Source of the DNA: Modestobacter sp. VKM Ac-2984
GTDB taxonomy: Bacteria; Actinomycetota; Actinomycetes; Mycobacteriales; Geodermatophilaceae
NCBI RefSeq assembly: GCF_026967985.1
Contig: NZ_JAPVBJ010000002.1
Coordinates: 352,349-416,348, forward strand
Length of the DNA stretch: 64,000 nucleotides
Direction of reading: 5' to 3'
A model generated the notes under the pieces. That model searched no databases, was not told the DNA's origin, and worked only from the letters and a program-made list of their open reading frames with translations. This document shows positions 59,142-63,035 of this stretch, piece by piece. Position numbers and translations under genes: made by a program. Every line of letters starts with the position of its first letter. Position 1 is the stretch's first letter.

Positions 59142-59744
59142 TCAGCGCAGGCTGGGGAAGCCGGCGGCCAGCTCGTCGAAGGCCTGGTGCAGTGCGGCGC
59201 CCAGGGTGATCCGGCCGTCGGCCAGCCACAGCTCGAACGCCGTCGTCGCCGCGGCCCGGGTGCTGGTCGCGACCAGCCGCGGCACCAGTGCGTCCGGCGC
59301 CACGCCGGTCCGCCGCGCCACGTGTGCGGCGACGACCCGGTCGACGTCGGCGTAGCGCACCTGGGAGTGCGCCAGCAGCGCCGGTTCGGTCAGGATCAGC
59401 CGCATCCGCTGGCGCAGCATCGGCAGGTCGGCCTCGGCGTAGTCGTTGACCTCGACGTAGGCGGCGGAGACCGAGGCGAGCACCGGCTGGTCGGCCGCAG
59501 CGGCGGCGAGCATCCCCTCCAGCCGGACGACGTGGCCGTCGAACTGGCCCCAGACCGCGTCGGCCTTGGTGCCGCAGTGGCGGAAGAAGGTGCGCCGGCT
59601 GATCCCGGCGGCGTCGGCCACCTCGTCGATGGTCACCGCCTCGAACCCCTGCGCGGTGAACAGGTCGAGGGCAGCCTGCTCGATCCGGGCGCGGGTCTCC
59701 TCGCGGGCGTCGGCCGCGACCATCGTCTCGGTCACGGTCCCCAT
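59142..59744 (-). CDS. mftR: Mycofactocin system TetR regulator MftR
   Basis: TetR-type regulator of 200 residues. The N-terminal helix-turn-helix lies at about 14-55 (RARIEQAALDLFTAQGFEAV, then ISRRTFFRHCGTKADAVWG). The FRHCGTKAD turn and the divergent position next to mftA identify it as MftR. The C-terminal ligand domain in known MftR proteins responds to acyl-CoAs. The ATG at 59744 has GGGGCAGG upstream and fits family length. The 125-base divergent region holds a palindrome that may be its operator. Confidence 0.88.
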   Translation of the reverse strand: MGTVTETMVAADAREETRARIEQAALDLFTAQGFEAVTIDEVADAAGISRRTFFRHCGTKADAVWGQFDGHVVRLEGMLAAAAADQPVLASVSAAYVEVNDYAEADLPMLRQRMRLILTEPALLAHSQVRYADVDRVVAAHVARRTGVAPDALVPRLVATSTRAAATTAFELWLADGRITLGAALHQAFDELAAGFPSLR

Positions 59745-59798
59745 CCTGCCCCCAGGTGGAGCGGTGACCGCCCGGCGCCGCGCTCCCGGTCGCAGCGC

Positions 59799-59828
59799 TT
59801 GCTCGTGGCACTGGGTGTCACCTACGGT
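59799..59828 (+). promoter_or_regulatory. Candidate mftA promoter
   Basis: TTGCTC, an 18-base spacer and TACGGT form a plausible sigma-70-type promoter about 40 bases before the mftA GTG. The spacer contains GTGTCAC-type symmetry. Confidence 0.4.
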
Positions 59829-59833
59829 CTGCC

Positions 59834-59851
59834 GGGTCAGGTCCGTGACCC
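59834..59851 (+). promoter_or_regulatory. Candidate MftR operator
   Basis: GGGTCA-GGTCCG-TGACCC is an inverted repeat placed just downstream of the predicted mftA start point. A TetR-type repressor bound there would block transcription. Binding by MftR is inference. Confidence 0.4.
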
Positions 59852-59869
59852 AGTTCACCCGGAGGCACC

Positions 59870-59989
59870 GTGCCCGAGACGACGCAGGACGAGCTCACCG
59901 TCGAGACCCCCGCAGCCGCCGAGGAGGTGCTCGTCGAGGAGTCCCTCGTGGAGGAGGTCTCCATCGACGGCATGTGCGGCGTCTACTGA
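59870..59989 (+). CDS. mftA: Mycofactocin precursor peptide MftA
   Basis: Precursor peptide of 39 residues. The N-terminal part is acidic (several Glu-Glu-Val repeats) and is followed by the invariant C-terminus IDGMCGVY. The last Val-Tyr is decarboxylated and cross-linked by MftC, then released and converted to the redox cofactor mycofactocin (established for the family). The GTG has GGAGG 4 bases upstream. The peptide falls below usual gene-calling lengths. mftB starts 10 bases after the stop. Confidence 0.93.
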   Translation: MPETTQDELTVETPAAAEEVLVEESLVEEVSIDGMCGVY

Positions 59990-59999
59990 TCCCCGCCCG

Positions 60000-60311
60000 A
60001 TGACCTCACCGGCTCCGGCCCCAGTGGCGATCGACCCAGCGGTGTTCGACCCGGAGCTGCCCTGGCAGCGCGCGCGGTCGGTGGCGCTGCGGCCGGAGCC
60101 CTTCGGGGCGCTGGTCTACCACTTCGGCACCCGGAAGCTGTCCTTCCTGAAGTCGAAGACGCTGGTCCGGGTCGTGGAGACCCTCGCCGACCACCCCACC
60201 GCCACGGCCGCCCTCCTCGCGTTCGAGGTGCCGGAGCCCCAGCGCGCCAGCTACGTCAAGGCGCTGGCCGACCTGGCCCGTTCCCAGATGATCGAGAGGC
60301 GTTCAGCATGA
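60000..60311 (+). CDS. mftB: Mycofactocin precursor chaperone MftB
   Basis: PqqD-like peptide-binding protein of 103 residues that presents MftA to MftC. RSVALRPEPFGALVYHFGTRK near residue 26 and LSFLKSKTLVRVVETLADHP are characteristic of MftB. It ends with YVKALADLARSQMIERR. The ATG is ten bases after mftA, and the stop overlaps the mftC start (ATGA), so the three genes are translationally linked. Confidence 0.92.
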   Translation: MTSPAPAPVAIDPAVFDPELPWQRARSVALRPEPFGALVYHFGTRKLSFLKSKTLVRVVETLADHPTATAALLAFEVPEPQRASYVKALADLARSQMIERRSA

Positions 60312-61537
60312 CCGCCGTCCTCCCCTCCCGCCCCGCCGAGCGCCCCACCGGCGGGCGGCTCATCGACCAGTTCGAGTACGGCCTGGACGCCCCGATCTGC
60401 CTCACCTGGGAGCTCACCTACGCCTGCAACCTGGCGTGCGTGCACTGCCTGTCCTCCTCGGGACGGCGCGACCCGCGCGAGCTGTCCACCGCCGAGGCGG
60501 AGGCGGTGATCGACGAGCTGCAGCGGATGCAGGTCTTCTACGTCAACGTCGGCGGCGGCGAGCCCACGGTGCGGCCGGACTTCTGGCACCTGCTGGACTA
60601 CGCCATCGGGCACGACGTCGGGGTGAAGTTCTCCACCAACGGCGTCAAGCTGGACAAGGCCCGGGCCGCGCAGCTGGCCCGCACCGACTACGTCGACGTG
60701 CAGATCTCCCTGGACGGCGCCACCGCCGAGGTCAACGACCGGGTCCGCGGCACCGGCTCGTTCGCCACCGCCACGAAGGCGCTGGAGAACCTGGCCGAGG
60801 CGGGGATGAAGGACTTCAAGGTCTCCGTCGTCGTCACCCGGGAGAACGCCGGGCAACTGGACGAGTTCAAGGCGCTCACCGACTCCTACGGCGCCCAGCT
60901 GCGGATCACCCGGTTGCGGCCCTCGGGCCGCGGGGCCGACGTCTGGGAGCAGCTGCACCCCACGATGGCCCAGCAGAAGGACCTCTACTCCTGGCTGCTG
61001 GCCAACGGCGACAACGTGCTCACCGGCGACTCGTTCTTCCACCTGTCCGCGTTCGGCGAGGCCCTGCCGGGGCTGAACCTGTGCGGCGCGGGCCGGGTCG
61101 TCTGCCTGATCGACCCGGTCGGGGACGTCTACGCCTGCCCGTTCGCCATCCACGAGAACTTCCTGGCCGGCAACGTGCGCTCCCCCGGCGGTTTCCAGCA
61201 GGTGTGGCAGAACAGCGAGCTCTTCGCCGACCTGCGCAACCCGCAGACCGGCGGCGCCTGCACCAAGTGCCAGCACTTCGACTCCTGCCGCGGCGGGTGC
61301 ATGGCGGCGAAGTTCTTCACCGGCCTCCCGCTGGACGGGCCCGACCCCGAGTGCGTGCAGGGCTACGGGGAGAGCGCGCTGGCCGCCCGCGACACCGAGC
61401 TGGTCACGCCCCGCAGCCACCTCGACCACTCGCACACCGGCCCGGTGCGCGGTCAGCCCACGCTGCTGGGCATGCCCGCGATCCCGCCCGCCAAGATCTG
61501 CGACGAGTCGCCGCTGGCCGGGCTGCAGCTCGGCTGA
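60308..61537 (+). CDS. mftC: Mycofactocin radical SAM maturase MftC
   Basis: Radical SAM/SPASM enzyme of 409 residues that oxidatively decarboxylates the MftA C-terminal Tyr and forms the Val-Tyr cross-link. The SAM-cluster site is YACNLACVHC near residue 37, followed by VNVGGGEPTVRPDF near 78. The C-terminal SPASM domain has CGAGRVVCLIDPVGDVYACP near 258, then CTKCQHFDSCRGGC, holding two auxiliary Fe-S clusters. Overlap with mftB ensures coupling. mftD is not found next to it, unlike in canonical loci. Confidence 0.94.
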   Translation: MTAVLPSRPAERPTGGRLIDQFEYGLDAPICLTWELTYACNLACVHCLSSSGRRDPRELSTAEAEAVIDELQRMQVFYVNVGGGEPTVRPDFWHLLDYAIGHDVGVKFSTNGVKLDKARAAQLARTDYVDVQISLDGATAEVNDRVRGTGSFATATKALENLAEAGMKDFKVSVVVTRENAGQLDEFKALTDSYGAQLRITRLRPSGRGADVWEQLHPTMAQQKDLYSWLLANGDNVLTGDSFFHLSAFGEALPGLNLCGAGRVVCLIDPVGDVYACPFAIHENFLAGNVRSPGGFQQVWQNSELFADLRNPQTGGACTKCQHFDSCRGGCMAAKFFTGLPLDGPDPECVQGYGESALAARDTELVTPRSHLDHSHTGPVRGQPTLLGMPAIPPAKICDESPLAGLQLG

Positions 61538-61543
61538 CCGCAC

Positions 61544-61559
61544 CGCCCCGGCCGGGGCG
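61544..61559. terminator. Palindrome at the mftC 3' end
   Basis: CGCCCCGG and its complement abut with no spacer seven bases past the mftC stop. As a hairpin it would end both mftC and the convergent small gene. Confidence 0.5.
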
Positions 61560-61565
61560 CCGAGC

Positions 61566-61670
61566 TCAGCGGAGCGGGGCGACCAGGCCGGGGGCGTCGG
61601 CCTGGTGGGGCAGCAGGTCGGCGACGGTCAGCAGGGCGAAGAACGCGGCGAGGACGGCGACGGTGACCAT
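61566..61670 (-). CDS. Very small membrane protein (34 residues) in the mycofactocin locus
   Basis: Open frame on the strand opposite mftC with a near-ideal ribosome site (GGAGG, 5-base spacing, ATG). The product opens with MVTVAVLAAFFALLTVADLL, a single strong membrane segment. A short polar tail with HQADAPG and a final Arg follow. No homologue is recognised. It lies about 90 bases beyond the PPOX-family stop on the same strand. Real translation is likely from the signals but unproven. Confidence 0.5.
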   Translation of the reverse strand: MVTVAVLAAFFALLTVADLLPHQADAPGLVAPLR

Positions 61671-61760
61671 CAGGACCTCCAGGGGTGGGTGGACCTCCAC
61701 GGTCCCCCCACCCGCTGGACGTCGGCGGGGTGTTCCCTGTGCCCCTGCTGGGAGGGCCGG

Positions 61761-62270
61761 TCAGAGCGCGACGGTCTCGTTCTCCCCGCCGGAGTACGGC
61801 TGCCCGGTGACCTTGGCCTTGGCGAAGCTGAAGACGCTGGCCAGCCGTCCGCCGGGGGAGTCCCAGTACTCGGCGGAGGCGGCGTCCACCCGGAGCAGCA
61901 CCACGTCGGTGTCCTCCGGGCCGTTCGGGAACCAGGCCTCGACCACGGGGTTCCACAGCTGCTGCTTCCTCGCCAGGTCGTCGAACACCACGGCGTGCCC
62001 GGTCAGCGAGACCCAGCTGTCGCTGCCGGAGGTGGCCACGTTGACCTGTGGGTTGGCGGTGACCTGGGCGACCTTGCGGGAGCTCCGGCTGGCGAAGAAC
62101 CACAGGTCGCCGTCGAACTCGACCTGCTGCATCGACATCGGCCGGCTCATCAGCGTGCCGTCGGGGGTGATCGTGGTGAACACGGCGATCCGCTCGTCCT
62201 TCAGCAGCTCCGCGACCTTGCGGGTGTCGGCAGCGCGCGTGTCCTCAGCGCGGGTGTCCTCAGTGGTCAT
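61761..62270 (-). CDS. Pyridoxamine 5'-phosphate oxidase-family (general stress protein 26-like) flavoprotein
   Basis: Split-barrel flavin/F420-binding protein of 169 residues. AVFTTITPDGTLMSRPMSMQ near residue 29, then DLWFFASRSSRKVAQVTANP and VVEAWFPNGPEDTDVVLLRV, match the stress-protein-26 branch. The N-terminus has a short repeat TRAEDTRAADTR from near-duplicated 14-base units. It lies inverted between mftC and mftE, and the divergent gap of 60 bases to mftE suggests shared control. A redox link to mycofactocin is possible but only from position. Confidence 0.85.
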   Translation of the reverse strand: MTTEDTRAEDTRAADTRKVAELLKDERIAVFTTITPDGTLMSRPMSMQQVEFDGDLWFFASRSSRKVAQVTANPQVNVATSGSDSWVSLTGHAVVFDDLARKQQLWNPVVEAWFPNGPEDTDVVLLRVDAASAEYWDSPGGRLASVFSFAKAKVTGQPYSGGENETVAL

Positions 62271-62330
62271 GCAGCTGCCCTGCCCGCAACGGCGGCCGGT
62301 GACACCCCTGCTCTGGCAGGGTGCCCGGCC

Positions 62331-63035
62331 GTGGGCGACGGCGTGCGGCTGACCGGGGCGACCTGGCCCGACATGGCGGGTCGTCCGCTGCTCGTCGTCC
62401 CGCTCGGGTCGGTCGAGCAGCACGGCCGGCACCTGCCGCTGACCACCGACACCGTGGTCGCGCAGGCGGTGGCGGAGGCCGCCGTCGCGGAGCTGGACGG
62501 CGCGGTGCTCGCCCCGGCGCTCGCGTACGGCGCCAGCGGTGAACACGAGGGGTTCCCCGGCACGATCTCGCTCGGCACCGCGGCGCTGACCACCGTGCTG
62601 GTCGAGTACGGCCGCTCGGCCGGACGCTGGGCGGGCCGGCTGCTCGTGGTCAATGGGCACGGCGGCAACCTCGACGCCCTGCGGGCAGCGGTGCCGCAGC
62701 TGCGGGCCGAGGGCCGGGACGTCGTCTGGTTCCCCTGTGGCGTGGCCGGGGGCGATGCGCACGCCGGGCGCACCGAGACGTCACTGATGTTGCACGTGGA
62801 ACCTGCTGGGGTCCGCCCGGAGTTCGCCGCCGCGGGGGAGACCGCGCCGATCGCGGAGCTGCTGCCCCGGCTGCGGGCCGAGGGTGTGCGCGCGGTGAGC
62901 CCGGACGGCGTGCTCGGCGATCCCGCCGGTGCGTCGGCGGCCGAGGGGGCGCAGCTGGTGCGCTCGCTCGCCGGGCGGCTGGTGGCCGCGGTCGGGGCCT
63001 GGGACGCCGACGCCGCCGGGCGGCTCCTGGGCTGA
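62331..63035 (+). CDS. mftE: Mycofactocin peptidase MftE (creatininase family)
   Basis: Metal-dependent amidohydrolase of 234 residues that frees the cross-linked Val-Tyr from modified MftA. Creatininase-fold metal ligands: Glu/His in LGSVEQHGRHLPLTTDT near residue 26, GASGEHEGFPGTISLGT near 66 and VVNGHGGNLDALR near 107. HAGRTETSLMLHVEP near 145 completes the pattern. The GTG at 62331 fits family length. Unlike typical loci, mftE is not directly downstream of mftC and would need its own promoter in the 60-base divergent gap. Confidence 0.9.
   Translation: MGDGVRLTGATWPDMAGRPLLVVPLGSVEQHGRHLPLTTDTVVAQAVAEAAVAELDGAVLAPALAYGASGEHEGFPGTISLGTAALTTVLVEYGRSAGRWAGRLLVVNGHGGNLDALRAAVPQLRAEGRDVVWFPCGVAGGDAHAGRTETSLMLHVEPAGVRPEFAAAGETAPIAELLPRLRAEGVRAVSPDGVLGDPAGASAAEGAQLVRSLAGRLVAAVGAWDADAAGRLLG
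62788..62803. promoter_or_regulatory. parS-like site inside mftE
   Basis: TGTTGCACGTGGAACC matches TGTTNCACGTGNAACA in all but the last base. It is almost identical to the site at 55634. Encoded residues are LHVEP of a conserved MftE motif, so chance is possible. Confidence 0.35.

Follow-up and report, generated by a model that had tools for sequence, protein, structure and literature searches.

The genome of a Modestobacter sp. (Geodermatophilaceae) carries the core of a mycofactocin locus in a 64,000-nt stretch of DNA, called here the window (G000:C12:352349-416348; positions below are in window numbering unless a contig is named). The typical mycobacterial cluster for this cofactor consists of mftR, mftA to mftF and mftG, as outlined in PMC11778925 and PMC3023750. 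A preliminary description of the window recorded mftD and mftF as missing and an inverted flavoprotein gene as inserted between mftC and mftE. Here we show that the absence of mftD and mftF holds for the window, where neither gives a match over cut-off, and not for the genome, where both are found. The genome very probably encodes the ordinary mycofactocin pathway, with its genes dispersed, like those of most Geodermatophilaceae examined, and with the flavoprotein and an adjoining microprotein standing outside the pathway.

The mycofactocin locus in the window

The order and orientation described earlier, with mftR followed by mftA, mftB and mftC, a small reverse-strand gene, the inverted flavoprotein gene and mftE, are confirmed in full at the following positions, and mftR, mftA, mftB, mftC and mftE all pass curated NCBIfam cut-offs.

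59142..59744, minus strand: mftR, TetR-type regulator, divergent from mftABC (TIGR03968, 232.2 bits, cut-off 224.9; PF17754, MftR C-terminal domain)
59870..59989, plus strand: mftA, mycofactocin precursor peptide of 39 residues (TIGR03969, 45.9 bits, cut-off 25; PF23709, 50.1 bits, cut-off 27)
60000..60311, plus strand: mftB, peptide chaperone (TIGR03967, 110.3 bits, cut-off 33)
60308..61537, plus strand: mftC, radical SAM/SPASM maturase (TIGR03962, 653 bits, cut-off 265)
61566..61670, minus strand: unnamed microprotein of 34 residues with one hydrophobic stretch; GGAGG before ATG
61761..62270, minus strand: flavin split-barrel family protein of general stress protein 26 type (PF16242, 171.4 bits, cut-off 28.8), upstream of the microprotein gene on the same strand
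62331..63035, plus strand: mftE, creatininase-type peptidase, divergent from the flavoprotein gene (TIGR03964, 330.8 bits, cut-off 172)

The mftR scan used a longer start at 59858, whereas the gene finder places the start at 59744; for mftB the gene finder prefers 60024. MftA is aligned to its last residue by both TIGR03969 and PF23709, as expected of a precursor with a conserved C-terminal core, and the genes for MftB and MftC directly adjoin mftA. The mftC gene is the only one in the genome above cut-off, and MftE supplies the peptidase of a mycofactocin locus. The gap between mftC and mftE is 793 bp (974 bp from hit to hit).

The MftC of the window shares 98 % identity with its counterparts in Modestobacter sp. 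VKM Ac-2982 and VKM Ac-2985. The order of mftC, small reverse gene, reverse flavoprotein gene and mftE recurs in assemblies of named relatives (L081, L083 and L160) with MftC 97-98 % identical, although L160 has about 3 kb extra between mftC and the small gene. Because the order is identical in these assemblies, an assembly fault is unlikely; comparing relatives, a check proposed in the preliminary description, reveals a shared gene order. Across a sample of 56 Geodermatophilaceae genomes, filtered to at least 90 % completeness, mftC and mftE have the flavoprotein gene between them in 36 of the 41 that carry both on one contig together with a homolog. We found no point in favor of an assembly artefact between mftC and mftE and consider it extremely improbable.

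The missing genes lie elsewhere in the genome

The preliminary description left two explanations for the absent genes: either they lie elsewhere, or the end product of the locus is a different one. Genome-wide search bears out the former, with the following matches outside the window.

C12:426416-427765 (gene finder: L017:12366-13799): mftF, glycosyltransferase, on the same contig as mftC (505.2 bits, cut-off 280)
C15, at 5084 and at 470020: mftD, two copies (TIGR03966, 688.9 and 687.7 bits, cut-off 470.85)
C12:649455: mftG (TIGR03970, 460.4 bits joined, cut-off 387.45)

The mftF gene is about 10 kb beyond the end of the window and 11 kb beyond mftE; both mftD copies are on a contig other than that of mftC, and 236 kb separate mftC from the downstream mftG. 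As mftA to mftG and mftR, the genes to which this claim of completeness applies (further tailoring enzymes fall outside the search), are all in the genome above cut-off, there is no gene-level support for a different end product. The location of both mftD and mftF outside the window speaks for such a product, made through their loss; their presence elsewhere above curated cut-offs refutes it at the level of genes, and with MftA matched to its last residue we regard it as very unlikely.

The contiguous run from mftA to mftF found in mycobacteria does not occur here: mftD is off the contig, the flavoprotein and microprotein genes separate mftC from mftE, and mftF follows mftE at a distance. Such a run is no defining feature of the pathway, and most Geodermatophilaceae genomes examined lack it too. 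Between mftE and mftF are genes for a Hen1-type methyltransferase and a Pnkp-type RNA repair ligase (L017:2579-6582). The start of mftF shares 4 nt with an isochorismatase-type gene (L017:11821-13799), a pairing that recurs in many Geodermatophilaceae loci.

With the roles of MftC, MftE, MftD and MftF as given in PMC11778925, the dispersed genes would supply a complete route. MftA would be bound by MftB and cyclised by MftC, and MftE, encoded 0.8 kb after mftC, would free the AHDP dipeptide. MftD, acting in trans from two gene copies on another contig, would oxidise AHDP to premycofactocin, to which MftF would add sugars. The used cofactor could then be re-oxidised by MftG, the enzyme known for this step. 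Our evidence consists of the presence, family membership and positions of the genes and their layout across the family; from it we infer that the genes are co-expressed and yield standard mycofactocin.

A dispersed layout is usual in Geodermatophilaceae

In the 56 genomes, mftC is found in 52 and mftD in the same 52, while mftE and mftF are each found in 51, every mftF being in an mftC-positive genome. Among the 52, mftE was not found in G009 and G023, and mftF was not found in G023. One genome without a match to mftC, mftD or mftF (G048) carries a lone mftE, divergent from a flavoprotein gene (L170, G048:C1:3374000-3393900).

Distances in the 52 mftC-positive genomes were taken from match coordinates and exceed the true gene gaps by about 0.2 kb, as in the 974 versus 793 bp of the window; G028 has two mftC, and the copy near mftE was used. 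In the 46 genomes with mftE on the contig of mftC, the two are more than 300 bp apart in 45 and closer in one (median 3.8 kb). The mftF gene lies 1.9-15.9 kb downstream in all 45 same-contig cases. For mftD, 22 of the 52 genomes have a match within 2.5 kb of mftC, and in the other 30 it is farther away or on another contig. None of the seven mftC-positive Modestobacter sampled has mftD near mftC, and five have the flavoprotein gene between mftC and mftE. Over the cut-off, mftG occurs in 46 of the 52 genomes with mftC and in none of the four without it (46/56 overall). In all 22 genomes with both genes on one contig, mftG is on the strand of mftC and 150-397 kb downstream of it; in 24 it is on another contig.

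The dispersed layout is usual in Geodermatophilaceae and common in Modestobacter. The locus is therefore a variant, as first described, relative to the mycobacterial order, though not within its own family. Completeness of the pathway cannot be read from gene-order rules based on mycobacteria, and in Geodermatophilaceae mftD, mftF and mftG should be sought elsewhere in the genome.

Two Modestobacter loci (L082 and L084) encode an MftD-like protein 2.5 kb after mftC. Its identity of 61-63 % is below the 72-75 % of Rhodococcus and allied genera, and it is perhaps a paralog.

The inverted flavoprotein is probably a neighbor of the pathway

The flavoprotein matches PF16242 over nearly its full length, far above the gathering score, and is by family a putative flavin binder. 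Its best solved relative, of seven found by sequence, is PDB 2i02, a general stress protein of COG3871 (E 3e-24). What sets it apart from these general stress protein 26/COG3871 proteins is its setting: it is inverted inside a mycofactocin locus and, in some genomes, adjoins the microprotein gene. Against the F420-dependent PPOX families it scores under the cut-off each time (TIGR03618, 45.3 against 79.05 bits; TIGR03667, 29.9 against 125.3; TIGR03666, 24.8 against 84.9). As a replacement for MftG it is not needed, MftG being present over cut-off.

The preliminary description suggested that the flavoprotein was a recruited partner. With or without the microprotein, it might be an electron acceptor, for example, or a stress-linked oxidoreductase using the cofactor. 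Its placement in 36 of the 41 judgeable genomes favors this idea, as do its inversion relative to mftC in every one-contig case and, in the window, the 60 bp between its chosen start and that of the divergent mftE. Its distribution speaks against it. At E 1e-25 a homolog is present in 48/56 genomes, comprising 44 of the 52 mftC-positive and all four mftC-negative ones, so that the flavoprotein is not confined to genomes with mycofactocin genes; none was found in eight of the 52. In four of the 44 mftC-positive genomes (G003, G013, G030 and G040) the best copy is only 52-53 % identical and outside the mftC-mftE interval, and may be a paralog. In the mftC-less genomes the copies show 64-67 % identity, as do many at mft loci.

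Two Modestobacter genomes without the mft genes (G032 and G037) put the recruited-partner idea to its strongest test. In both, the flavoprotein gene is kept between the same neighbors with the microprotein gene beside it, flanked on one side by a gene that we label aminotransferase-like and a 183-residue gene, and on the other by genes for a periplasmic binding protein and a Hen1-type methyltransferase. Because the flavoprotein persists there without the pathway, the idea fails this test. Moreover, no copy was found within the 20-21 kb fetched around each of 12 mft loci outside Geodermatophilaceae, and the enzyme known to re-oxidise the cofactor is encoded in this genome. We therefore consider a partnership with mycofactocin quite unlikely; judged by these occurrences, the flavoprotein is probably a neighbor of the pathway and not a partner.

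Several facts nevertheless weigh against an ordinary, dispersed pathway with the flavoprotein outside it. The mftD copies, and in 24 genomes mftG, are off the contig of mftC, and the measured distances cover the same-contig cases alone. The flavoprotein gene is never found in the orientation of mftC where both are on one contig, and it keeps its place between mftC and mftE over intervals of 0.8 to 11.4 kb. The simplest reason for this constant placement would be shared ancestry.

A conserved microprotein of 34 residues

The small reverse gene was read by the open reading frame tool as 44 residues from GTG. The reading of 34 residues is favored by a shared start (ATG or GTG) after GGAGG and the same stop, and start, GGAGG and stop are conserved in all nine copies compared. 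These are the closest ones, the more distant matches (35 rows, some from the same genome fetched twice) being left out; over 33 codons they give a mean nonsynonymous difference (pN) of 0.10, a mean synonymous difference (pS) of 0.26 and a mean pN/pS of 0.37. Judged by eye, the one hydrophobic stretch may form a membrane helix.

A profile of the microprotein matches 26 of the 56 Geodermatophilaceae genomes at E 0.01, once in each, and 23 of these matches are at the mft or flavoprotein locus. The other three (G002, G017 and G038) have weak E-values and are likely chance matches; weak locus matches in G003 and G040 contain a stop. Among 25 rows with neighbors placed, 12 sit 11-56 bp past the mftC match, five more are 84-97 bp from the flavoprotein, three are at about 60 bp from mftR, and five (L090, L102, L108, L111 and L138) fit no pattern. 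In 200 genomes of the order, a search at E 1e-5 whose first pass scored only 39 candidates per genome gave 12 matches, all in Geodermatophilaceae, the 168 matchless genomes not being itemised. Searching 5.8 billion proteins with the 44-residue reading returned 32 entries, including that of the window itself; those whose names were listed are called hypothetical protein, and short metagenomic contigs of unknown host are the source of most entries.

The microprotein is present in two of the four mftC-less genomes (G032 and G037) yet absent from the mftC-positive G022, and thus does not track the pathway. Nor does it form a strict pair with the flavoprotein: it occurs without a flavoprotein match in G042, G046 and G047, and in many genomes the flavoprotein is present without a microprotein match. 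Both proteins probably have roles of their own, related to stress or to the membrane. A more specific proposal is that they form a small unit kept at the mft locus, which would link its redox pool with the membrane during oxidative stress and could also function without mycofactocin; we think this very improbable.

A second mftD in a dehydrogenase cassette

The second mftD (G000:C15:470014-471252; L019:10015-11253) is part of a mycofactocin-coupled dehydrogenase cassette. Its neighbors encode a mycofactocin-coupled short-chain dehydrogenase/reductase (SDR; TIGR03971, 340.8 bits, cut-off 300), an aldehyde dehydrogenase, a carboxymuconolactone decarboxylase-like protein, an FAD protein and a GMC oxidoreductase. 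The last (L019:3600-5201) was tried as MftG and rejected, scoring 304.3 bits against the TIGR03970 cut-off of 387.45; the MftG of the genome is that at C12:649455. The presence of SDR, aldehyde dehydrogenase and GMC oxidoreductase resembles known mycofactocin-coupled SDR neighborhoods (TIGR03971), whereas this one holds its own mftD and a GMC protein below the MftG cut-off. Of 23 Modestobacter genomes, two encode a close relative of this SDR (E 1e-90): that of the window and G069, where its gene adjoins mftR at the mft locus.

Across 1,179 nt of coding sequence the two mftD copies share 97.9 % identity, and their flanks are unrelated. They are each other's closest relatives (support 100/100) in a tree that was built from a MAFFT alignment and also includes six relatives; ungapped identities for G047 and G053 (about 64 %), apparently spoiled by a one-codon length difference, were not used. 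The native copy is in a conserved neighborhood, and a gene that we label YceI-like is directly upstream of mftD in all six other mftC-positive Modestobacter sampled. Two mftD matches over cut-off occur in six of the 56 Geodermatophilaceae genomes (this one, G014, G026, G028, G040 and G051) and, among the seven mftC-positive Modestobacter, in this genome only. A recent duplication, possibly with later homogenisation, would explain the paired copies. As to a candidate conversion of the native mftD by a foreign copy, the sliding identity to two relatives shows only a slight dip at mftD.

With this analysis a variant cofactor drops out as a candidate, and the case for a candidate partner protein becomes weaker. 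What is gained is a microprotein, conserved and unnamed, and a natural duplication of mftD, the interesting remainders of this locus.

Comparison with other mycofactocin systems

For comparison outside the family we used the best 80 of 578 relatives, 12 of which belong by title to other groups (Pseudonocardia, a Nanopelagicales metagenome-assembled genome, Rhodococcus, Aldersonia and Prescottella); L142, labelled Bacillus and flagged as unverified, was counted with Geodermatophilaceae. In 11 of the 12 outside loci mftD follows mftC on the same strand, and a remote mftD was found in none of these 11, a small sample. Nine of the 12 have mftE, which in eight starts 6.5-9.4 kb after the start of mftC. 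As mftE is thus far from mftC in outside loci too, the split between the two is not peculiar to Geodermatophilaceae. Our literature search found no paper joining mycofactocin with Modestobacter, and mycofactocin was co-mentioned with Geodermatophil- only as a table row for G. obscurus.

The eLife paper on MftG reports that candidates for mftG often lie within 5 kb of mft genes and that about 25 % of mftC genomes lack one. In Geodermatophilaceae, by contrast with that linkage, the nearest of the 22 same-contig cases is at 150 kb and 24 more are off the contig. Compared with the mycobacterial cluster, as described in PMC11778925 and PMC3023750, the Modestobacter genome has all eight gene families above curated cut-offs and the same divergence of mftR from mftABC. 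It differs in an mftD that is off the contig and doubled, in the spacing out of mftE and mftF, and in an mftG 236 kb away.

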